From Chitinophagales bacterium (GTDB lineage: Bacteria > Bacteroidota > Bacteroidia > Chitinophagales > UBA2359): a DNA stretch of 35,149 nucleotides. The notes below the pieces were generated by a model. The model ran no database searches, had not been told where the DNA came from, and saw only the letters and a list, made by a program, of their open reading frames with translations. Shown here one piece after another: positions 8,917 to 29,082 of the stretch. A program made the position numbers and the translations under genes. The stretch is from positions 1 through 35,149 of the forward strand of contig JAEUUX010000269.1 of assembly GCA_016787295.1 (NCBI GenBank), given 5' to 3'. Each line of letters opens with the position of its first letter. Position 1 is the stretch's first letter.

Positions 8917-9435
8917 TTACCATTTAATTTTTAAGCCCATCTCTTGTTTAAGGTACAACAAAGCTTGTGCATTGCCACGTGCATCGTCCACAGGGTGATG
9001 CGTATGTGGTGTTTCTCGGAGATGTTTGAAGTTTTTGAAGGTATCTTTCACCATGCCTTTGTAAAGACTACCTAAGTTTTGGGAACTAAAGCCAAAAGGG
9101 TTTTTACCCAAAAAATGATGAAAATACCAACATACAAACATCCAATCGAAGCCATTGTTGTCGCTGATGAAAATGGGACGGTCTTTGGACACTTGGTTTA
9201 TCCATGTCGCAAAATCGGTCATTGCTTGTGTGGCTTCGGGAAAAAGCAAGGTTTCGGCGCGACTATAGCCCGATACGGCTAAGGCTTCGGGAACATAACG
9301 GTCAGAAATAGGGCGAATTTGGGCAAAGAAAGTCGTGTCTAAGGCTTCATTGACCACTATTGCTCCCAATGCTATCATCGAATAATCGCCCGGTATAGGT
9401 CCATCGCTTTCGATGTCTACCATAATGTAGGTCAT
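8917..9435 (-). CDS. DnaQ-like 3'-5' exonuclease (DEDDh family)
   Basis: A 172-residue single-domain exonuclease of the RNase T/DnaQ superfamily. The four acidic metal ligands are D7 and E9 (VDIESDG), D97 (NNGFDW) and D151, with the catalytic H146 in the HxxxxD motif (HHPVDDARGNA). That makes it DEDDh type. No other domain is present, so it is not a polymerase subunit. The short form resembles stand-alone 3'-5' exoribonucleases annotated in many bacteria. The substrate (RNA or DNA ends) cannot be read from the sequence. An alternative start four codons in, at 9423, begins MVDIES and would be just as good. The upstream neighbour ends 18 nt before the ATG, so the two are probably co-transcribed. 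Confidence 0.88.
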   Translation of the reverse strand: MTYIMVDIESDGPIPGDYSMIALGAIVVNEALDTTFFAQIRPISDRYVPEALAVSGYSRAETLLFPEATQAMTDFATWINQVSKDRPIFISDNNGFDWMFVCWYFHHFLGKNPFGFSSQNLGSLYKGMVKDTFKNFKHLRETPHTHHPVDDARGNAQALLYLKQEMGLKIKW

Positions 9436-15040: not shown

Positions 15041-18000
15041 ATGAAAAAAGCATTATCATTCCTCTTATTGCTGAGTTGTAGTTGGCTCATGGCTCAAAAT
15101 TTAGTACCCAACTACGACTTTGAAGATACCCTTCAATGCCCCAATGCTTTTGGGCAGATAGCAATTGCTGATGGTTGGTTTTCGCCCACCGATGGAACGC
15201 CCGACTATTTCAATAGTTGTGTAGCGGGCAATAGCACTCTTGGCAATCCCGACAACTATTATGGCTCGCAAGCTCCGTATAGCGGCAATGGCTATGCGGG
15301 TTTCTTTGCATTCGGACCTGGCAATTTGCGCGAATATGTTTCTATTCCGCTCACTAATAACCTACAAGTTGGCGAACAATACTGTGTTAGCTTTAAGGTG
15401 AGTCATGCCGAGTTCACTTACAATGCCGTAGAAAATATTGGTTTATATTTTTCTACTAACCCCATTAGTGTTACCAATGGTTCGCAACACTTGGGCATTA
15501 CGCCGCAAATCGTCAATAGCAACGGCATTTTGAGCAATGACAACGAATGGGTGACCATTTCGGGGACTTTTACTGCCACCGATACCATGCGCTATATTAC
15601 TATAGGTAATTTTTATAGCAATAATGACACCAATGAGGATATTACTTTCGAACCGACACCGGGTGTAACAGGCGGTTTTATCAATTCTGCTTATTATTAT
15701 CTCGATGATGTGGTAGTGGTGGAACTGCCAACGGTCAATACCATTAGTATTACCAACAACAATAATTCTCCTTTGCTGTGCGAAGGCAACAATATTGACT
15801 TGTCGGTAGAAGCAGGTGCTTTGTCCTACAATTGGACGACCACCGCTGACCCTTTTACGAGTATTGGCACCGAAAACACTTTGAACGTGTCTCCTTTGGT
15901 CAGTACGTCCTATATTATGACTGCCAGTTTTGGTGAATGTGTGTTGCGCGACACCTTAGCGGTTTTTGTTTATCCACAGCCCACAGTGAGTTTCACACAT
16001 GGCGATGCTTGTGTGGGGTCGGTGGTCAATTTCTTTGCCAATAGCAGCAACACAAGCCCCACAGTCACTTTTGCTTGGGATTTTGATAATGACGGCTCCA
16101 CCGATGCAACAACAGCAGGCGGAGCAAGCCATACCTATAGCACTCCCGGTACCTATACCGTCACGCTCGAAGTGGCAAACGATGCTGTTTGTGTGAGTAC
16201 ATTTAGCTCGACTATTACTGTGGCAGCCGAATGTGATGTTTGTACACAAAACAATAATTTGGTAGCCAATAGCAGTGCGGAGGCTTATACTGCCTGCCCC
16301 GATTCGCTCAATCATCTAAGCCTCACTAATTGGTCGCAAGCCACCGAAGGCTCAGTCGATTATTTCAACACTTGTGCAACAGGCGACAATGGCGTGGCAA
16401 ATAATATCTTTGGTAGCCAAGCCGCTGCCTCGGGCAATGCCTATTTGGGTATTATGGCGTATGCACCTTTCAACTACCGCGAATATGCTCAAGCCCAAAT
16501 GACACAACCTTTGGAAGTGGGCAAATCGTATTGTGTGAGTTTCAAGGTGAGTTTGGGTGACAATTCGCGCAAAGCCATCGACCAACTTGGTGCCTATTTT
16601 TCTACTGACCCTTTGAATGTTGCCACACAATCGGCGCTCAACCTTACGCCGCAGGTGAGCAATGATGCAGGCAATCTGTTGACCGATAAAAATGGTTGGA
16701 CAACTATATCAGGTAATTTTACGGCTACCCAAGCCTTCCAATATATTACGCTGGGCAATTTTTATGAAAACGGTGCTACAGCTACTACAGACGTAAGCGG
16801 TAGTACCCCCAATTTTGCTTTCCATGCTTACTATTATTTGGACGATGTGAGTGTTATCGAATTGCCTACTCTAAACATTTCGGACGATGCTACGGTTTGT
16901 GTAGGAACTGAAGTTAACTTAACAGCCAGCGATACCAATAGTTTTTGCACCTTGTCTTGGACTGATGAAAATGGTGTAGAACTTGGCACCAATGCACAAT
17001 TGACCGTCAACCAGATGGTAGGCGGCACCCACACCTATTACCTTACTGCTTCTTTGAACAGCGGTTGTGCTGTCAGTCAAGCTGTAACGGTGACTTGGTT
17101 AGATATTCCTATTGCCAATCTCTTAGTTGCACCAAGTTGTGCAGGTGGTATTACGGTGTTCCAAAATCTTTCGCAAGGCTCAGTAGGTGCGAATACTTAT
17201 GCTTGGGATTTTGAAAACGATAATAGTGTAGATTTCCTCAGTGCCACCGCCACCGACCAGTTCCACATTTATCCTGCTCCCGGCACCTACATTGCCTTGT
17301 TAGTAGTACGCAATGTTTTGGGTTGTTCTGATAGTTTGTATTTGCCTGTTGTCATTGCCGCTACTTGTGACCCATGTAATAGTGGCAACAATTCGGTGGT
17401 GAATGGTGATTTTGAAGCTATTAGCGACTGTCCTACGGCGCTCGACCAAGCCGATTTGGTAAGTAGTTGGCTCTATGGTGGCGAATCTCCTAATGGAACG
17501 CCTGATATTTTTGCAAGTTGTTCGGGCAATAGCGTTGTGGGTGTTCCCAACAATGTATATGGTTCTCAAGCGGCTTATTCGGGCAATAACTACATTGGTT
17601 TTTCGCCCATCAATCCTGCTGATGTTACGCAAAAACAATATATCGTTGGACAAACTTTACCGCTTACTGTTGGACAAACTTATTGTGTGCGTGCATACAT
17701 CGCTTTGGCAGATAGCAGCGCCTTTAGTACCGACCAATTGGGTATTGCGTTGGGTGTCGATGGTATTACTGCCAATCAAATGCCTTTGTGGAATAATCCC
17801 GAAAATGTTCAGTTGGCTCAAACAAGCAATTGGACTGAATTTAGTGCGACTTTTGTGGCAGATAGTGCCTATAGTTTTATTGGCATTGGCGATTTTGGAC
17901 AATATACTTCTAATGTTGTGGAACAAAATGCGGCTAATCCGCTGGCACTTCCTTATTATTATATCGATGCTGTTAGTATTGTTCCGTTGACGATTAGTGT

Positions 18001-21000
18001 TTCTGCCGATGCGACCATTTGCGAAGGCGAAAGCACCGAACTTAGCGCCACCACTAACACATGTGAATCATATTGGTCTATTGCAGGTTTCAACCAATTG
18101 TTGAGTACCAGCACCACTTTGACCGTTTCGCCTACCACCACCACTACCTACGTTTTTACGGGTAGCAATGGTAGCTGTAGCATTAGTGATACAGTAACAG
18201 TATTCGTCAATCCTATTCCGCAAATTAGCTTATCCGATACTTTGTCTTTCTGTTCAGGCGGAGCTGTGACGCTTGATGCCACTGTATCTGTTAATGATGC
18301 CACAGTAATATGGACTCCTGCTCTGAATATCACCAATCCCAACATTTTGACTCCAAATGTATTCCCCACACAATCGACTTGGTATTATCTTAGTGTTACG
18401 AATAATCAAACAGGTTGTGTTAATACAGATTCGGTGTTAGTGGTGGCGAATCCTTTACCCAATACAGATATTACGACAAGTCTAACGATTTGTGAAGGTA
18501 GCGGCGTTCAGTTGTATGCTTCAGGTGGCTTGGCATATTCTTGGAACGATGACCCCACTTTGTCTACCACCAATGTGGCAGACCCTATTGCAACACCCAC
18601 GCAAAACACTACTTATACCGTTACGATTACCAATGCAGTTGGTTGCCAAAGCACCGAGTCTGTGACTGTGAATGTGCGTCCTGCCTACCTTTCCGAGCCT
18701 GAGACTTTGGTATTATGTGGCAATGTAAGTGCCGTTTTGCAGCCCGATGTGCCAGCTACGGCAGTCAGTTTTAGTTGGTCTCCGACAACAGACCTTAGCA
18801 ATCCTAACGTCAAAAATCCTACTACTTTTACGCCCAATGATGTGGTATATACCCTTAGTTATGTAGACGATTTGGGTTGTAGCGGCATAGCACAAGTGGT
18901 AGTAGATGCCAATCCTGCTCCTTCGGCGGGTTTAGATGTAAGCATTTGTAGTGGTGGTACGGCGCAACTTATCGCCTCAAGCGGTGCAAGTAGTTATAGC
19001 TGGTCTCCTGCCACAGGCTTGAGTGATTCGAGTATTGCTAATCCTATTGCCACACCAAGCGAAACAACCAACTATGTGTTGACGACCACCTATAGCACCT
19101 CAACCGGCAATTGTGTTTTGAGCGATACGGTGACGGTATTTGTGAATTCTACAGGTTTTGCTCAAGCGGGCAATGATGTGGTTATTTGTTCAGGCAGCGA
19201 AATCCAACTCAACGCTTTGGGTGGCGATAGTTATAGCTGGTCTCCTGCCACAGGCTTGAGCGACGCTACAGTTGCCAATCCTATTGCCAATCCAAGCGAA
19301 ACAACGGAATATATTGTTACGGTGCAAAATAACACCACTGGTTGTGTGTCAAACGATACCGTTTTGGTGACCGTCGAAACGGCTTCTGCTCCTGAATTTA
19401 CTGCCACATTAGACCCTATTTGTACCATGCCTTTGGAAGCAACCACCATCTGTTTACCTTTAAACTATAGCGGTTGCGAACCTTTGTTCACTTCTGTCGG
19501 CGGACAATTGAGTGCGTTTAGTTCTGGTTTTGTGTATAGCAATGGTAGCGTTTGTTTCGATTATTATACTACTTTCTATGGCAACGACCAAACCATTCGC
19601 ACCGACACTTTGTTCATCACTACCTGCACACAATTCACTAACCAATGCATCGAAAGTACGGTGGTATTGCGCTATTGTGACACAGCACCCGAATGGGGAA
19701 TTGACAATATAGATGCGATTACTTGTCAAAATAATTTGGTGCAAATTGGCTTGCCGCGTCCTACTGACCTCGATGCCGATGAAACCAACCTCACTTATAG
19801 CACCACTTCGCCCAGCAATGGTACAGCGGTGTATATCAATGGTGCGGTGAATTATACACCTAATAGTGGCTTTAGCGGCACCGACCAATTTACAGTTGTT
19901 GTTTGTGATGAGTTATATCCTGTCCAATGCGATAGCATGAATGTTTCGGTGACGGTATCTGCCAATACAGCTCCGACTACTCCAACCGTAAACGTAACAA
20001 CGCCTAACCAAACGGCTGTAGATTTCTGTTTGCCTGTTAGCGATGCCGAAAGCGGTGTGACAACTACCGTCACAAGTATTCCAAATGTAGGTACATTTAC
20101 GCCTGCCTTGCAAGGAGGCAACTGCTTCGTATTTACGCCAAATGGCAACTATAGCGGCACACAAGCCTTTAGCTATAGTAGTTGTGATGCTTGTGGTTTG
20201 TGCAGCGAAGGCACTGTTAACATCACAGTTCAAGCTCCGATTAATTATCCGCCTATTATTACCCCAAACAATATTATTATTAGTACGCCTTATCAAACAC
20301 CTGTTACCACTTGTTTGACTATCAGCGACCCGAATGGCGATCCTTTTACTTCTACTATTACATTTGAGCCGCTAAACGGCACCTATAATATTGATACCAA
20401 CAATTGCATTACCTATACACCTAATGCAGGTTTTAATGGCAATGATGCGATTAGCATTTTGGTTTGCGACGAATTTGGTGCTTGTAATAGTGTGACGGTG
20501 GTAGTGGTTGTTTCGCCGCCCAATTTGGTAGACCCAACTGTTTTGGACGTTACTGTTTCTACGGAATATGAAACGGGCGTTACGGTATGTATCAATGCCA
20601 GCGACCCACAAAACGATGACTTAGCCTATACTTTTGGCAACCCCAGCAATGGTAGTATTAGCATTAGTGATAGCTGTATTTTCTATACACCCAATAATGG
20701 TTTTTCAGGATTAGATACAGTTGTTGTAACGGTGTGTGACTCCGAAAATCATTGTGCCAATGCCAATATCTATATTACTGTAGGTTCTCCCAACAATACT
20801 GCTCCTATTGGACAAGATTTGAGTTTGACTACAGTTCCCAATGGTACGGTATCAGATTGTATTAGCTTTACCAACGAGCCTGCGGGCGAAAATGTGACCG
20901 TTGTGGTGGGCAATGACGATGTAACACACGGTACTTTAACCATGCAGCCTAATGGTTGCTTTACCTATACTGCTAATGGAGACTATAGTGGAGCAGATAA

Positions 21001-23299
21001 TTTTACTGCTTTGATTTGTGATGCAGGAGGCTTGTGTGATGTAGTAACGGTAAATATCACCATTGTCAACCCCTCTCCTATTGCCAATAACCTTACTATT
21101 TCTACAGTTGTTAACACGTCTACCAACAATTGTGTGACCTATAGCAACGCTCCGACCGGCGAAGACGTAACCGTGAGTGTGCTGAACGCTCCTATCAACG
21201 GTAGTACCGCCATGACTCCGAATGGTTGTTTTACCTATACGCCTAATAACAATTTTGTTGGTAACGATAGCTTTACAGCTTTGGTGTGCGATGTAGCTGG
21301 TTTGTGTGACACAGCAACTATCAATGTTATTGTAACAGCCAATAATCCTGCTCCTACTATTACGGGACAAAACGTAAACACGCTCAATCATACCCCTGTT
21401 AATGGTTGCTTGAGCTTTAGTAATGAACCTGCGGGCGAAACAACTACTATTACTTTGATAGGAGCAGCCAGCAATGGTACGGCTACTTTGGGAACAGATG
21501 GTTGTTTTACGTATGTTCCAACAGGTACTTTTACAGGTACAGACCAATTTGTAGCCCAAATTTGCGATGCCCTAAACCAATGTGATACGGCTATTGTAAA
21601 CATTACAGTAGGACCCAATACACCGCCTATCTTTGACCCGATTCCTTTAACACCTATGATAGCAGGACAAGACACCATCGTTTGTTTACCTTCTTTCTTT
21701 GATGGACAAGGAGACTTTTGTAGTATCACAGCTATTAATTCTTATGGTATAACCACTGGTGGTCCCCCAGATTTAGTAGGAACGGCAGAAATTGTAAGTC
21801 CCAACTGTATTCATTATACTTCTGTAGCTGGTTTTTCGGGTTCTATTAATATAAATGTGAGTGTTTGTGACGACCAAGTGCCGCCTTCTTGTGTAGTAAC
21901 AGATATTGCCTTTGGTATTTACAATATTCCTACGGTACAAAATGTGACGGTATCTACTCCACAAGCAGAAACTGTATTAGGTTGTTTTACCATTGTTGAT
22001 TTAGACCCTGGTGATAACCATACTGTTACTATTGTAGGAAGTCCGAGCAATGGTGCGGCTACTATTGGTGACAACAATTGCATCAACTATACACCCAATA
22101 GTTCGTTTATTGGTATTGATGAAGTGACCGTACAGTTTTGCGATACACATGGACTTTGTACAACGGCAGTTTTGACTATTATTGTTACTGACAATCTAAT
22201 TGCAGAGAACGATACTATAGCTACCGAAGAAAGTATTCCTGTAAACATCGATACGCACGACAACGACACAAGCCCCAATAATTTTACGGTGACAATTATT
22301 GACCAACCTAATCATGGTACAGCTACTGTTGATGCAAATACTGGTGTGATTACCTATACTGCGATAGATTATGCAGGTAGCGACACATTGACCTATACTT
22401 TGTGCAACACACCATTGGGTTGCGATACAGCCGTAGTTGTGATTACTGTTACTAACAATTTAGTGGCTTTTGACGACTATACCAATACCAATCAAGACAC
22501 GGGGGTAGACATTATTGTATTAGACAATGACGTGGAGCCGGGAACAATAACACCACAAGCCATCACAACACCTACCAACGGACAAATCTTTAATACGCCC
22601 GGCGGTTTTACCTACCTACCCGATGCCGATTTTATTGGTACAGATTCGTTTATGTATGTGATTAGCTATCCCGGTTATGGTAGCGATACGGCGGTGGTTT
22701 ATATTACGGTGGCAGGGCCTCCTGCTTCGCCTATTGCAAACGATGATATATTGGTGACACCATTCAACACAAGTGGTAGCGTCAATATTGAAACCAATGA
22801 CCTTATTCCGCAAGGTAGCTATGTGATAAACATCACACAACAACCACAACACGGTACGATTAGTTATGATGCTGCAACAGGTATTGTCACTTATACGCCC
22901 ACCACTGGCTATAGTGGTAACGATAGTTTTACTTATACCATCTGCCACAGCGTTCAAACAAATTTGTGTGACGATGCAACTGTGACCATCACAGTACAAC
23001 CCGAAGTTATCGTAGATTGTAACATTAAGGTATACAAATTGGTGACACCCAACAATGATAATAAAAACGACCAACTGACCATCGGTGGTTTAGATTGTGG
23101 TGGTAATGATGTCAATACCTTGGTTATCTTTAACCGCTGGGGTAATCCTGTGTTTGAAACCGACAACTATAACAATACTTCTAATTTCTGGGACGGCACC
23201 TATAAAGGCAATGCAGTGCCTGCGGGTACTTATTTCTACATCTTGAAAGTTCCAGCTAATGATTTTGAAGAACAAGGTTATATCGAAGTAACGCAATAG
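15041..23299 (+). CDS. Giant secreted multidomain adhesin-like protein, type IX (type B) cargo
   Basis: A 2752-residue protein with signal peptide 1-19. It opens with three copies of a module of about 210 residues, starting near residues 20, 404 and 784. Each begins N-x-V-x-N-x-x-x-E and contains a conserved D-Y/I-F-x-S/T-C segment, a YGSQAA-YSGN segment, a C-V-x-x-K-V or similar core, and a closing YYYLDDV. The first two are each followed by an Ig-like domain and a PKD domain (FAWDFDNDG, YAWDFENDN, with STPGTYTVTLEV). A chain of Ig-like domains with SYSWSPATGLS motifs fills about 985-1445. Then come roughly ten cadherin-like domains marked by GTxTxxxxGCFTYTPNxxFxGxDxFxxxVCD (about 1450-2645). 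The last 90 residues (VTPNNDNKNDQL, FNRWGNPVFE, WDGTYKGNAVPAGTYFY) are a gliding-motility-associated C-terminal domain. Role is inferred as a surface adhesin or motility-linked protein. Confidence 0.93.
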   Translation: MKKALSFLLLLSCSWLMAQNLVPNYDFEDTLQCPNAFGQIAIADGWFSPTDGTPDYFNSCVAGNSTLGNPDNYYGSQAPYSGNGYAGFFAFGPGNLREYVSIPLTNNLQVGEQYCVSFKVSHAEFTYNAVENIGLYFSTNPISVTNGSQHLGITPQIVNSNGILSNDNEWVTISGTFTATDTMRYITIGNFYSNNDTNEDITFEPTPGVTGGFINSAYYYLDDVVVVELPTVNTISITNNNNSPLLCEGNNIDLSVEAGALSYNWTTTADPFTSIGTENTLNVSPLVSTSYIMTASFGECVLRDTLAVFVYPQPTVSFTHGDACVGSVVNFFANSSNTSPTVTFAWDFDNDGSTDATTAGGASHTYSTPGTYTVTLEVANDAVCVSTFSSTITVAAECDVCTQNNNLVANSSAEAYTACPDSLNHLSLTNWSQATEGSVDYFNTCATGDNGVANNIFGSQAAASGNAYLGIMAYAPFNYREYAQAQMTQPLEVGKSYCVSFKVSLGDNSRKAIDQLGAYFSTDPLNVATQSALNLTPQVSNDAGNLLTDKNGWTTISGNFTATQAFQYITLGNFYENGATATTDVSGSTPNFAFHAYYYLDDVSVIELPTLNISDDATVCVGTEVNLTASDTNSFCTLSWTDENGVELGTNAQLTVNQMVGGTHTYYLTASLNSGCAVSQAVTVTWLDIPIANLLVAPSCAGGITVFQNLSQGSVGANTYAWDFENDNSVDFLSATATDQFHIYPAPGTYIALLVVRNVLGCSDSLYLPVVIAATCDPCNSGNNSVVNGDFEAISDCPTALDQADLVSSWLYGGESPNGTPDIFASCSGNSVVGVPNNVYGSQAAYSGNNYIGFSPINPADVTQKQYIVGQTLPLTVGQTYCVRAYIALADSSAFSTDQLGIALGVDGITANQMPLWNNPENVQLAQTSNWTEFSATFVADSAYSFIGIGDFGQYTSNVVEQNAANPLALPYYYIDAVSIVPLTISVSADATICEGESTELSATTNTCESYWSIAGFNQLLSTSTTLTVSPTTTTTYVFTGSNGSCSISDTVTVFVNPIPQISLSDTLSFCSGGAVTLDATVSVNDATVIWTPALNITNPNILTPNVFPTQSTWYYLSVTNNQTGCVNTDSVLVVANPLPNTDITTSLTICEGSGVQLYASGGLAYSWNDDPTLSTTNVADPIATPTQNTTYTVTITNAVGCQSTESVTVNVRPAYLSEPETLVLCGNVSAVLQPDVPATAVSFSWSPTTDLSNPNVKNPTTFTPNDVVYTLSYVDDLGCSGIAQVVVDANPAPSAGLDVSICSGGTAQLIASSGASSYSWSPATGLSDSSIANPIATPSETTNYVLTTTYSTSTGNCVLSDTVTVFVNSTGFAQAGNDVVICSGSEIQLNALGGDSYSWSPATGLSDATVANPIANPSETTEYIVTVQNNTTGCVSNDTVLVTVETASAPEFTATLDPICTMPLEATTICLPLNYSGCEPLFTSVGGQLSAFSSGFVYSNGSVCFDYYTTFYGNDQTIRTDTLFITTCTQFTNQCIESTVVLRYCDTAPEWGIDNIDAITCQNNLVQIGLPRPTDLDADETNLTYSTTSPSNGTAVYINGAVNYTPNSGFSGTDQFTVVVCDELYPVQCDSMNVSVTVSANTAPTTPTVNVTTPNQTAVDFCLPVSDAESGVTTTVTSIPNVGTFTPALQGGNCFVFTPNGNYSGTQAFSYSSCDACGLCSEGTVNITVQAPINYPPIITPNNIIISTPYQTPVTTCLTISDPNGDPFTSTITFEPLNGTYNIDTNNCITYTPNAGFNGNDAISILVCDEFGACNSVTVVVVVSPPNLVDPTVLDVTVSTEYETGVTVCINASDPQNDDLAYTFGNPSNGSISISDSCIFYTPNNGFSGLDTVVVTVCDSENHCANANIYITVGSPNNTAPIGQDLSLTTVPNGTVSDCISFTNEPAGENVTVVVGNDDVTHGTLTMQPNGCFTYTANGDYSGADNFTALICDAGGLCDVVTVNITIVNPSPIANNLTISTVVNTSTNNCVTYSNAPTGEDVTVSVLNAPINGSTAMTPNGCFTYTPNNNFVGNDSFTALVCDVAGLCDTATINVIVTANNPAPTITGQNVNTLNHTPVNGCLSFSNEPAGETTTITLIGAASNGTATLGTDGCFTYVPTGTFTGTDQFVAQICDALNQCDTAIVNITVGPNTPPIFDPIPLTPMIAGQDTIVCLPSFFDGQGDFCSITAINSYGITTGGPPDLVGTAEIVSPNCIHYTSVAGFSGSININVSVCDDQVPPSCVVTDIAFGIYNIPTVQNVTVSTPQAETVLGCFTIVDLDPGDNHTVTIVGSPSNGAATIGDNNCINYTPNSSFIGIDEVTVQFCDTHGLCTTAVLTIIVTDNLIAENDTIATEESIPVNIDTHDNDTSPNNFTVTIIDQPNHGTATVDANTGVITYTAIDYAGSDTLTYTLCNTPLGCDTAVVVITVTNNLVAFDDYTNTNQDTGVDIIVLDNDVEPGTITPQAITTPTNGQIFNTPGGFTYLPDADFIGTDSFMYVISYPGYGSDTAVVYITVAGPPASPIANDDILVTPFNTSGSVNIETNDLIPQGSYVINITQQPQHGTISYDAATGIVTYTPTTGYSGNDSFTYTICHSVQTNLCDDATVTITVQPEVIVDCNIKVYKLVTPNNDNKNDQLTIGGLDCGGNDVNTLVIFNRWGNPVFETDNYNNTSNFWDGTYKGNAVPAGTYFYILKVPANDFEEQGYIEVTQ

Positions 23300-25408: not shown

Positions 25409-26770
25409 CTACACACAATAAGCATCAGCAATACTTAGCGCTTCGGAAATAATTGCCAATCCTTCGTCTACCTCCTCGCGTGTGATACATAAAGGCGGTG
25501 CGATAAAGACATAGTTCCAACGTACAAAAGTATACATACCTAATTCGCGAATTTTGGCGGCTACTTGGTTCATCACCGTCATTTCTTGCGGTTTGGCATT
25601 GAAAGGAGCCATGGGTTCTTTGGTAGTGCGGTTTTTGACGACCTCTATGCAGCCCAACAATCCCGTATTGCGGAAATCGCCGATGCATGGATGTTTTTGT
25701 GCTAAAAAGTCCACTTGTTGTTCTACGTAGCTCCCCATAGCGGCGGCATTTTCTATCATATTTTCGTCTTCATAGATGCTCAAGACCTCCACTCCTGCCG
25801 CGCAAGCAACAGGGTGTGCCGAATAGGTTAAACCCAACATCAAAGGACGGTCGTCATAATGTTTTGCAATTTTGTCGGATACAATCAAAGCGCCCAAGGG
25901 CAGATAACCTGCTGTAAGTCCTTTGGCAGTAGCTATCATATCTGGTACCACACCAAAATTATCTACACCAAACCATTTGCCTGTTCTACCAAAACCGCTC
26001 ATTACTTCGTCGGCAATCAACAAAATACCATATTTGTCGCACAAATCGCGCAATTTTTGCCAATAATCAGGCGGATATTTGATACAACCCGACGAACCCG
26101 ATTCACCTTCCATCAAAATAGCAGCAATGTTTTCGGGTCCTTCGAACTCGATAATGCGTTCGATGTGTGATACGCATTCACGTTGGCAAGTACTCATTTC
26201 TTGTGACCAAGGACAACGATAGCAATACGGGTCTTCGACGTGAATGATGTTTGGGATTTGTTGGGAGTCGGAGGACAATTTGCGTGGGTCACCGCCTGCG
26301 GTCATTGCACCATAACTGGCTCCATGAAAAGCCCTATAGCGTGCAATAATTTTATGACGACCTGTATAGAGTCGTGCCAATTTGATAGCATTTTCTATCG
26401 CAGTAGCACCACAAACGGTAAACAATGTTTTGGTCAAATTGCCGGGCGAAATTTCGGCTAATTTCTTGCCTAAGTCACCTCTTGCTTTGGTAGTGCAGGT
26501 GGGTGTTACATAGCTTACTTGTTGCATTTGACGCACAACGGCATCTGTTACGCGCTGGTGTCCGTGTCCGATATTGACATTCATCAAACCTGATGAAAAA
26601 TCTATGTAGCGTTTGCCATCATAGTCATATATGTATACGCCTTTGCCATATTCGACATTGATGGGGTTGAGTCCTGCTTGTTTTGACCATGAAAACAAAG
26701 TATAGTCTGCATTATTGAGACGTATTTCGGCTTTTTCAGCTTCGGTAAGTTCTTCGGTATGTATCAACAT
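25409..26770 (-). CDS. Class III PLP-dependent aminotransferase (taurine/omega-amino-acid type)
   Basis: A 453-residue cytoplasmic enzyme that transfers an amino group from an omega-amino compound to a keto acid. The N-terminal strand region is GVYIYDYDGKRYIDFSSGL. The cofactor-binding site shows CGATAIENAIKLAR, YRAFHGASYG, the Asp of IADEVMSGFGRTGKWF, and the Schiff-base Lys in IATAKGLTAGYLPLGA. A Cys-rich insert (DPYCYRCPW ... CQREC) is typical of taurine/beta-alanine-type class III enzymes. GLTYSAHPVACAAG is also typical. The exact substrate is not readable. I chose the ATG at 26770; a TTG two codons earlier would also fit. A TACCTTTG promoter element lies 43 nt upstream, and a strong terminator follows. 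Confidence 0.93.
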   Translation of the reverse strand: MLIHTEELTEAEKAEIRLNNADYTLFSWSKQAGLNPINVEYGKGVYIYDYDGKRYIDFSSGLMNVNIGHGHQRVTDAVVRQMQQVSYVTPTCTTKARGDLGKKLAEISPGNLTKTLFTVCGATAIENAIKLARLYTGRHKIIARYRAFHGASYGAMTAGGDPRKLSSDSQQIPNIIHVEDPYCYRCPWSQEMSTCQRECVSHIERIIEFEGPENIAAILMEGESGSSGCIKYPPDYWQKLRDLCDKYGILLIADEVMSGFGRTGKWFGVDNFGVVPDMIATAKGLTAGYLPLGALIVSDKIAKHYDDRPLMLGLTYSAHPVACAAGVEVLSIYEDENMIENAAAMGSYVEQQVDFLAQKHPCIGDFRNTGLLGCIEVVKNRTTKEPMAPFNAKPQEMTVMNQVAAKIRELGMYTFVRWNYVFIAPPLCITREEVDEGLAIISEALSIADAYCV

Positions 26771-26812
26771 ATTCAAGCTTATTTTAATAAAAAATTAGGT
26801 ACAAAAAGAGGA

Positions 26813-26923: not shown

Positions 26924-26931
26924 TATCTTTG
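26924..26931 (+). promoter_or_regulatory. -7 element that fixes the GTPase start
   Basis: TATCTTTG lies 19 nt upstream of the ATG at 26950. It falls inside the alternative reading that starts with TTG at 26917, so transcription from it would begin after that codon. This favours the ATG. Confidence 0.6.
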
Positions 26932-26949: not shown

Positions 26950-27756
26950 ATGGCAGGATTAGAGACAATTGGTACATTGGTAGACGTATACAGTACGGCT
27001 AAAGATGGAAAAGGCATTTTGCAAAATATAGCAAAATGGTTTAAAACCCCAGCTAATATATTAGTAGTGGGTAGCAGTGGTGTGGGTAAAACACAATTTA
27101 TTCAGGTACTTCGAAATGACAGTGCTACAACAAATCCGCTTCGAACGACAAAACCCGAAAAACACACGACCGAAATAGAAAAAATAAAATTGGTCTTAAC
27201 AGACACGCCAGGTCATGAACATTATGAGACTATATTGCAAGGAACTATAGCCGCCAATGTTACGCCTAACATGATAAAGGACAATATTTTTTGGGAGCAT
27301 CCACTTGCAGGTATTATTAATGTGGTTGCATATGGTTATCCCGAAGAACCCAACATTAACGCCAAACATTTATTGCTGCAAGGCAGTTTTGATGAACAAT
27401 TACAAAAAGTCAATATAGGTTTTTTGGAAAGAAATCGCAATATGGAATTAGAACATTTAAATTATTGGCTACCTACCATAGCCGAAAATAGTTCCAAAGT
27501 TCCTTGGATAATCAACCTTATAAATAAGGCTGATATTTGGTGGGACGATGAAAATGATGTTCGCCAATATTACGATACTATCTTTTCAGAACCTTTTAAA
27601 CATTTGCGAAAAGACATTGAAATTATGAACATCTACTTTTGTAACAAAGTACAACCTTATTATAACAAACAACGCAGCAGTATGTTTGGAGAACAAGAAA
27701 AACTCCATTTACAAGAAAATTTTAAGAACAAATTAGTGTCTTTACTCTCAAAATAA
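26950..27756 (+). CDS. P-loop GTPase, function unknown, paired with a membrane protein
   Basis: A 268-residue single-domain GTPase. A short helical lead (residues 4-32) precedes G1 GSSGVGKT at 41-48. Threonines at 66-67 and 73-74 are candidates for switch I. G3 is DTPGH at 85-89, as in translational GTPases. G4 is NKAD at 192-195. The region between G3 and G4 is unusually long (about 100 residues) and includes NAKHLLLQGSFDEQLQKVN. No other domain is visible, so it is not a known elongation or ribosome-assembly factor. I chose the ATG at 26950 because the promoter element at 26924-26931 overlaps the earlier TTG. The gene is followed at 8 nt by a three-TM protein and probably works with it at the membrane; this is inference. 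Confidence 0.85.
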   Translation: MAGLETIGTLVDVYSTAKDGKGILQNIAKWFKTPANILVVGSSGVGKTQFIQVLRNDSATTNPLRTTKPEKHTTEIEKIKLVLTDTPGHEHYETILQGTIAANVTPNMIKDNIFWEHPLAGIINVVAYGYPEEPNINAKHLLLQGSFDEQLQKVNIGFLERNRNMELEHLNYWLPTIAENSSKVPWIINLINKADIWWDDENDVRQYYDTIFSEPFKHLRKDIEIMNIYFCNKVQPYYNKQRSSMFGEQEKLHLQENFKNKLVSLLSK

Positions 27757-27764
27757 GGTTTTGT

Positions 27765-28436
27765 ATGACTCCTTTCAAAAAAAATAGCAGCTTAGTTTTC
27801 TCGGAGCAACAGTTAGCAGCCATGTTGCACGACAACTTGCGCCAAGAAGATATTGAATTATTAGAGTCAGAATACTTTCGTTTGGAGGAAAAATTACGCT
27901 CATTACAACAAGGAATAAGTAACTTAAGCGCTATAGAACATTGGATTATTAGATATTTTGACGGTATTGTTTTCACACTTAGTGTAATGGTAACGATCCT
28001 TATGTCCTTTATTTTTTTGACACATACTATTTTTTTTACACCGCATAGAAGCATACTTTCACCCAGTCAACTTTCTCAAATAGATATACATTGGGTGCTT
28101 TTTTTTAAATCTGTTTTTGTATTGGCAGGTTCACAGGCATTTATGGCATGGATAGTGTTTGGTATCAAGCAACGTCTTGCACCTTTGCGAAAACAATGGG
28201 ATTATTTGGTTAATGAAATGCAGTGGGGCAATGCAAACGTGATTTTTCGCTATAAAGATAAAACAAATTATGCCAACGCTCTAAAAGAATGTGGTAAAGT
28301 AGTTAACTTCGAGATCTCGCCGACAGATATATCTGATTTTCAGATAGCTTTTTCTTATAGTAGCTCTTTACTTCTATCTTGCTTAATTGCCATCCTTTTT
28401 TGGTTACTAACAGGACACAATCCATTAACCTTGTAA
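27765..28436 (+). CDS. Three-TM membrane protein with N-terminal coiled coil
   Basis: A 223-residue protein. Residues 27-54 (LRQEDIELLESEYFRLEEKLRSLQQ region) form a probable coiled coil. Membrane segments are at about 67-91, 110-133 and 196-216. A hydrophilic segment of about 60 residues between the second and third (RKQWDYLVNEMQWGN, KDKTNYANALKEC) would be cytoplasmic or periplasmic depending on topology. No catalytic motif and no family that I recognise. It starts 8 nt after the GTPase stop and ends 7 nt before the O-methyltransferase ATG, so the three are probably one transcript. It is a good candidate for the membrane partner or anchor of the GTPase. Confidence 0.75.
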   Translation: MTPFKKNSSLVFSEQQLAAMLHDNLRQEDIELLESEYFRLEEKLRSLQQGISNLSAIEHWIIRYFDGIVFTLSVMVTILMSFIFLTHTIFFTPHRSILSPSQLSQIDIHWVLFFKSVFVLAGSQAFMAWIVFGIKQRLAPLRKQWDYLVNEMQWGNANVIFRYKDKTNYANALKECGKVVNFEISPTDISDFQIAFSYSSSLLLSCLIAILFWLLTGHNPLTL

Positions 28437-28443
28437 TAAATTT

Positions 28444-29082
28444 ATGCTTCTACCCGAAATCATAGAAACCTACATAGCACAGCACAGTACCAAGGAGTCG
28501 TCTACCTTAGCAGCCCTCAACCGCGAAACACACCTCAAAGTGTTAATGCCGCGTATGTTGTCGGGGCAGGTGCAAGGAATGTTTTTGCAATTGTTGAGCC
28601 ACGCCATTCAGCCCAAAAATATTTTGGAAGTCGGTACCTATACCGGCTACTCTGCCATTTGTTTGGCACAAGGTTTGCAGCCTAATGGCAAGTTGCACAC
28701 CATCGACATCAATGAAGAACTGTATGACTTGCAACAAAAATACTTTGACCAAGCCGGTTTGGGACAACAAATTGTGTCACATATTGGCAATGCCCTCGAC
28801 ATTATTCCTACTCTCAACGAAACTTTCGACTTGGTATTTATTGATGCTGATAAACAAAATTATCCTGCATATTACCAGCTCGTTTTCCCCAAAGTGCGTA
28901 TAGGCGGTTATATTTTGGCAGACAATGTGCTGTGGAGTGGAAAAATCGTCGACCCTACACCCGACAAAGACACCCTCGCTTTGCAACATTTCAACGATTT
29001 TGTACAAAAAGACGCGCGCACCGAAAATATATTACTACCTTTGCGCGACGGAATTATGATAGCCCGAAAAATTGCAGAATAA
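28444..29082 (+). CDS. SAM-dependent O-methyltransferase (COG4122 type)
   Basis: A 212-residue class I methyltransferase of the caffeoyl-CoA/catechol O-methyltransferase family. The SAM-binding motif I is ILEVGTYTGYSA (about residues 60-72). A later acidic segment, TIDIN, contacts the SAM ribose. VFIDADKQNYPAYY and ADNVLWSGKI are the family's metal- and substrate-site motifs, giving a divalent-metal-dependent enzyme. The substrate is not readable; bacterial members are often broad. It follows the GTPase partner with a 7-nt gap, so it may share the GTPase promoter. Whether it works with that pair or is only a passenger is open. Confidence 0.93.
   Translation: MLLPEIIETYIAQHSTKESSTLAALNRETHLKVLMPRMLSGQVQGMFLQLLSHAIQPKNILEVGTYTGYSAICLAQGLQPNGKLHTIDINEELYDLQQKYFDQAGLGQQIVSHIGNALDIIPTLNETFDLVFIDADKQNYPAYYQLVFPKVRIGGYILADNVLWSGKIVDPTPDKDTLALQHFNDFVQKDARTENILLPLRDGIMIARKIAE

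Follow-up and report, generated by a model that had tools for sequence, protein, structure and literature searches.

A stand-alone Ras-like GTPase and a predicted inner-membrane protein, encoded side by side in the window (the whole analysed stretch of 35,149 nt from a Chitinophagales bacterium), form a real two-gene module with a clear anatomy, for which we infer a switch mechanism. The pairing, gene order and spacing are fixed across relatives, the motifs G1 to G4 are present in the GTPase and the partner has a predicted membrane topology. The GTPase family is rare, diverged and patchily distributed. In profile searches both proteins reached superfamily level at most, and to judge from their sequences neither belongs to a described family beyond that level, which agrees with the sequence-only reading of an unrecognised GTPase/membrane pair. 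The literature searched, which included few subscription papers and no preprints, contained no description of this pair. The best reading is an accessory module with a GTP-switched inner-membrane function; we see about equal grounds for and against the view that the two genes have spread horizontally as a GTP-switched module of the inner membrane.

The features of the locus are collected in Table 1.

Table 1. Features of the GTPase/partner locus and its flanks (positions in the window).
Feature	Position	Strand	Remarks
GTPase gene, 268 aa, stand-alone Ras-like	26950..27756	+	ATG 26950, stop ends 27756
Predicted inner-membrane partner gene, 223 aa	27765..28436	+	ATG 27765, stop ends 28436
O-methyltransferase gene	28444..29082	+	Pfam Methyltransf_3 1e-50
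Class III aminotransferase, divergent flanking gene	25409..26776	-	Pfam Aminotran_3 7.5e-93
TATCTTTG, promoter-like -7 element (TAnnTTTG)	26924..26931	+	18 nt upstream of GTPase start
TACCTTTG, TAnnTTTG promoter-like element facing aminotransferase	26820-26813	-	

The partner gene, encoding a three-TM protein, starts 8 nt after the GTPase stop codon, and the O-methyltransferase gene starts 7 nt after that of the partner, both as described earlier from the sequence. The spacer of 173 nt between the GTPase gene and the divergent aminotransferase gene contains one TAnnTTTG per strand, each facing its gene; the background density of this element in the whole window is 0.8 per kb per strand. We take TAnnTTTG to be the Bacteroidota -7 element. 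The GTPase gene had been credited with its own promoter in this spacer: the element upstream of it is promoter-like, and no good -33 element was seen on inspection by eye.

The O-methyltransferase gene is probably co-transcribed with the GTPase and partner genes. Of 20 genomes from the host's family 19 have it, whereas the GTPase and the partner were each found in one of them; hence it is a widely kept gene outside the module, and its earlier inclusion in the unit is not supported. The divergent aminotransferase gene is outside the module as well. A clean empty site was not found when seven window proteins were searched in the relatives' loci with 1.5-kb flanks, where the O-methyltransferase itself was the only one of the seven recovered. 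Positions 15041-23299 (+) of the window encode a repeat protein of 2752 aa; its start is signal-like, and its C-terminus presumably resembles type IX secretion/gliding sorting domains.

The pairing was assessed in 18 GTPases, 15 of subfamily A and three of subfamily B. In 17 of them, a membrane-protein gene lies downstream on the same strand at a distance of -4 to +14 nt, and the partners have 1-3 TM. The 18th GTPase gene (G919) is followed by a contig end 142 nt downstream, and this stretch, without an evident partner start, cannot be judged. Rare neighbourhood of the homologues had been named beforehand as a refuting outcome, and the pair withstood this test. In the control regions, the same criterion assigned TM to 48 of 134 ORFs, and close same-strand pairs had a TM protein downstream in 6 of 18 cases. 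The distance matrices of GTPases and partners are correlated (r 0.59 for 13 pairs; p 5e-5, the lowest value that the test can give), which speaks for co-inheritance and not for contact. The median pairwise identity is 31% for the GTPases and 16% for the partners.

Several loci have peculiarities. On Rhodococcus plasmid pDK4, an in-frame ATG at L003:8758, 4 nt past the GTPase stop, opens a frame for 182 aa with three TM (L003:8758-9306), and the annotated partner start at 8920 is probably too late. Genome G974 has two module copies, L072:6601-7491 and L073:2994-3941, with very unlike partners: that of the former has one TM and a large C-terminal portion, that of the latter three TM plus a C-terminal domain. 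A distant subfamily B relative on a Georgenia plasmid (L049:5899-6660), with no listed membrane gene adjoining, was kept out of the 18 GTPases compared.

The window GTPase carries G1 GSSGVGKT (residues 41-48), G2 R65-T66, G3 DTPGH (85-89) and G4 NKAD (192-195), and G88 and N192 are 103 residues apart. The G1, G3 and G4 motifs and the stretch of about 100 residues between G3 and G4 were thus read correctly from the sequence. The order G1, G2, G3, G4 with beta4 between G3 and G4 is that of a Ras-like alpha/beta fold, and the protein is soluble, with no TM of its own. Residues G41, G44, G46, K47, F50, R65, G88, G121, G129, Y130, L159, E166, K193, A194, D195, W197, V204 and Y208 are invariant in 10 aligned GTPases. 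A helix within the G3-G4 stretch has the consensus FLxxNRxxELExLxEWLP. An Arg stands directly before the G2 Thr/Ser in 10 of the 13 aligned subfamily A members and also in L096; it is missing in subfamily B, L070, L072 and L073. Most subfamily A members have DxxG, and the G3 Asp is missing in subfamily B (VIPGQ), L016 (TVPGQ) and L096 (TTPGQ). The last G3 position is occupied by Gln in 10, His in two and Glu in one of the 13 aligned subfamily A members. The DTPGH formerly called translational-type is therefore present in the window GTPase and atypical of its family, and does not tie it to translation factors.

Searches of Pfam, NCBIfam, PHROGs and PADLOC gave the window GTPase generic GTPase or P-loop matches only. 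Pfam Ras, Roc, MMR_HSR1 and RsgA were above the cut-off and confined to residues 11-97, and the PADLOC profiles gave three weak partial matches (best E 7e-4). The best PDB sequence matches were Rab proteins (residues 35-97, E 0.004), and a PDB-sequence profile search returned generic P-loop/GTPase proteins, with a midasin P-loop stretch at the top rank, followed by Rab and EngA types. The AlphaFold model of the single protein (mean pLDDT 76) features a Ras-like domain, and its structural neighbours (VIA) are Gtr/Rag, Arl1 and SR-beta with Z 15-18, mostly 160-185 residues being aligned at an rmsd of 2.3-3.4. As modelled, the fold appears to be Ras-like and closest to Rag/Gtr, Arf/Arl and SR-beta.

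The window partner has hydrophobic stretches at residues 67-85, 116-134 and 194-212. Its AlphaFold model (single protein, mean pLDDT 73) contains a helix at 14-91 running into TM1, consistent with the N-terminal coiled coil proposed earlier, and charge-based topology predicts the N-terminus and the TM2-TM3 loop on the inner side. Most subfamily A partners combine a helical N-terminal region with a TM hairpin, a loop containing 8-13 basic residues and a third TM, and subfamily B partners have two TM. The partners of L011, L072 and L073 have sizeable C-terminal parts, predicted outside by topology.

For the window partner, nothing was above any cut-off in Pfam, NCBIfam, PHROGs and PADLOC (with zero matches in the latter), and a PDB-sequence profile search gave no convincing match. 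A fold search with the partner model returned helical bundles only, and absence there proves nothing. A FEELSDELEW motif after TM2 is common to seven partners (L003, L009, L010, L013, L014, L016 and L096); it was built from those same seven, six of which score 29-40 bits, being in its seed. The window partner scores 3.9 bits (shuffle p 0.33), i.e., at chance level; its best place, at the corresponding site behind TM2, is no more than suggestive. The N-terminal helix motif of the partners does not match it either. Leave-one-out profiles clearly recognised 8 of 13 subfamily A partners; L015 was barely above and L011 and L073 were below the best shuffle, and the window and L072 partners were not recognised at all. 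The comparison of subfamily A and B partner profiles gave a probability of 8. Since profiles do not recognise the window partner and the motif score is at chance level, it is an equivalent by position and topology and not a proven homologue, and at the sequence level neither profiles nor motif support its membership of the same partner family as the others. Either it has diverged past recognition or the GTPase combines with unlike membrane partners.

A tblastn search located identical copies of the GTPase on three Rhodococcus plasmids and a more distant one on a Hymenobacter plasmid. The GTPase was found in two of 60 related genomes, the source genome and G054. The first contig scan of the genome collection with a single GTPase sequence gave zero matches; the second, with a three-sequence alignment, gave eight loci among 84,980 genomes (five in Bacteroidota and one each in Hydrogenedentes, Acidobacteria and Oceanicaulis), a lower bound because the scan depends on exact peptide patterns. 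Both the class sample (E 1e-12, n = 395) and the phylum sample (E 1e-15, n = 395) yielded the source genome only, with recall limited by the scoring of six candidates per genome. Samples at order level gave 6 of 291 genomes with the GTPase around a Cytophagales member (three already known) and 2 of 200 around the Oceanicaulis member; samples at phylum level gave 1 of 347 around the Acidobacteria member and 1 of 68 around the Hydrogenedentes member. Each of these four counts includes the already known centre genome. Twelve of 13 Acidobacteriota matches were not counted, as they cover part of the first 89 GTPase residues only, and a Streptomyces match (H13, 41% covered) lies outside the GTPase set. 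A supposed remnant in G879 was dropped, being antisense inside an intact LysM-type ORF.

The source genome has a second, diverged pair, comprising a GTPase paralogue (C137:38332-39168) and a 2-TM protein after it. Subfamily B also occurs on the Hymenobacter plasmid and in G003, which brings it to two of the 20 genomes of the host's family. The comparison of subfamily A and B GTPase profiles gave a probability of 99 over 250 columns. In the GTPase tree, the copy from the Rhodococcus plasmid is joined to that of an Acidobacteria MAG (support 97/94). This grouping, together with the patchiness within the host's family (1 of 20 genomes), points to a horizontal spread of the pair.

Several known systems resemble the pair in part. 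According to a 2014 survey, MglA-family GTPases work in signal transduction and are recognised by G3 TVPGQ or GTPGQ and MglB coupling within four genes; those of Group 1 carry their intrinsic arginine finger next to the G2 Thr (PMC4316618). The window GTPase is similar in being stand-alone and Ras-like with an Arg beside the G2 Thr (R65-T66), and two relatives have an MglA-like G3 (L016 TVPGQ, L096 TTPGQ); however, its own G3 DTPGH is not of the MglA type, and it differs in its 268 aa and long G3-G4 stretch. The window partner has no roadblock-type (MglB) Pfam match, the flanks scanned being the aminotransferase and the O-methyltransferase. The Rup family is described in the same survey as Ras-like, without MglB coupling and, in that defining survey, of at most 240 aa; Rup Group 1 loci include a partner often with a membrane helix and three further conserved genes, for a coiled-coil protein, often an OmpA-type protein and a signal output module (PMC4316618). 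The window GTPase shares the Ras-like character and DxxG with Rup proteins, whereas there is one partner here against three further genes and 268 aa exceeds the survey limit. Because proteins longer than 240 aa were dropped from the survey, the window GTPase family may have been missed in it (PMC4316618).

DO-GTPase/GAP1 conflict systems are described as having mobility, a GTPase core, membrane components and variable parts, all reminiscent of the present pair, and a Walker B motif with a conserved Glu, unlike the window G3 DTPGH; the same paper describes SLATT proteins as 2TM predicted pore-forming effectors (PMC7159879). No GAP1 match was obtained for the window partner (Pfam, E up to 10) or for 10 partners (E up to 1), the GAP1, GASH and DO-GTPase profiles were absent among the 19 Pfam matches of the pair at E up to 10, and none of the 12 partners scanned had a SLATT Pfam match. 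We assume that the Pfam copy searched contains DO-GTPase, GAP1 and SLATT models. A TM hairpin with a cytosolic helical part, foremost in subfamily B partners, is presumably a likeness to SLATT. YcjX/YcjF is another GTPase gene with an adjoining membrane-protein gene, like the window pair; YcjX is much larger than the window GTPase, and the YcjX and YcjF profiles had no match in the Pfam scan of the window pair.

The genomic context bears on an anti-phage or conflict role, in which the GTPase would sense invasion and the variable partner would depolarise or permeabilise the membrane. Such a module would be expected from a rare, patchy, plasmid-borne pair whose partner diverges fast behind a steadier GTPase, and three or more of the 17 loci have defence-type neighbours: a nuclease of Mrr type with a C5 DNA methylase at L009, a PDC-M07A-like fragment together with a PtuA ATPase (1e-162) at L011, and NsnB (3e-99) and NsnC (8e-34) at L015. 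The count is a lower bound, since the PADLOC tally is of families and not of proteins and covers the first 25 of 162 at the loci and the first 25 of 111 in the controls. However, the control regions match the defence library too (PglW 1.3e-266, PDC-S02 2.9e-127, NsnB 1.5e-48). The scan comprised 123 neighbour ORFs of 17 loci (L096 not among them), 10 of them decoded singly, after 18 of the 141 listed had been left out, two for size and the rest as doubtful or short frames. The control set was 127 of 134 ORFs from the host genomes, seven having been omitted, three of these for size; of the 20 regions asked for, 17 existed, and one of them was without an ORF. With strong matches in both sets, no enrichment is claimed, a defence-island reading was rejected, and the context does not support defence: homologues lie near defence genes at some loci, and control regions have comparable matches. 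Most other neighbours are housekeeping-like by eye, and phage records and viral contigs gave no match, so that a conflict module is rather unlikely, if the most serious rival. At L009, a 352-aa ORF after the DNA methylase gene (L009:12815-13870) matches no Pfam family at E up to 0.1 and might encode a homing-type endonuclease or a restriction partner.

Alternatively, the membrane protein may be a receptor, perhaps a GEF or GAP, with the GTPase signalling to an unlinked cytosolic target. The C-terminal parts of the L011, L072 and L073 partners, predicted outside, would be fit for sensing, and MglA-family GTPases act in signal transduction according to the survey (PMC4316618). Nevertheless, no third gene common to the loci was seen, and a unit of two mobile genes would have to meet its target in each new host, which makes a signalling pair of this kind unlikely. 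An addiction module resembling toxin-antitoxin systems, with a toxic membrane partner restrained by the GTPase, would account for two tightly spaced genes with the putative neutraliser first, and the L003 plasmid copy lies beside MobF-type genes and the L004 plasmid has transposases. GTPases are not known to us as antitoxins of this kind, however, and the partners are large (up to 315 aa), so this reading is improbable. A housekeeping ribosome or trafficking GTPase with a membrane gene adjacent by chance could be suspected from DTPGH and the weak RsgA, EF-Tu and MMR_HSR1 profile matches, but the matches stop near residue 97, the gene is present in 1 of 20 family genomes only and the pairing holds in 17 of 18 cases across phyla; distribution and pairing largely refute this reading, which we regard as highly improbable.

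Under the preferred reading of a GTP-switched inner-membrane module, the soluble Ras-like GTPase would dock in one nucleotide state on the cytosolic parts of its cognate partner, namely the N-terminal helix and the TM2-TM3 loop, and docking would change the partner's TM bundle; physical interaction and gating are thus proposed for the pair. The Arg next to the G2 Thr/Ser of most subfamily A members could act as a built-in arginine finger, as R65 may do in the window GTPase by analogy, and the switch would then turn itself off without a separate GAP. As no shared third gene was seen, input and output probably both lie inside the pair, and the variable partner would likely be a membrane effector or channel. 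The module may have an accessory stress or conflict role. A bolder version is doubtful: the pair would be a minimal mobile G-protein system whose Ras-like GTPase, with an arginine finger of its own, gates the variable membrane effector directly, one switch family thus serving many membrane outputs.

The characterised bacterial small GTPases known to us mostly work with MglB-type regulators. Here, a compact GTPase is genetically bound to one membrane partner in several phyla and is plasmid-borne. It would be a simple, experimentally easy bacterial case of G-protein control over a membrane protein and, if direct gating is true, the prokaryotic equivalent of a channel gated by a G protein, perhaps with a use in immunity.
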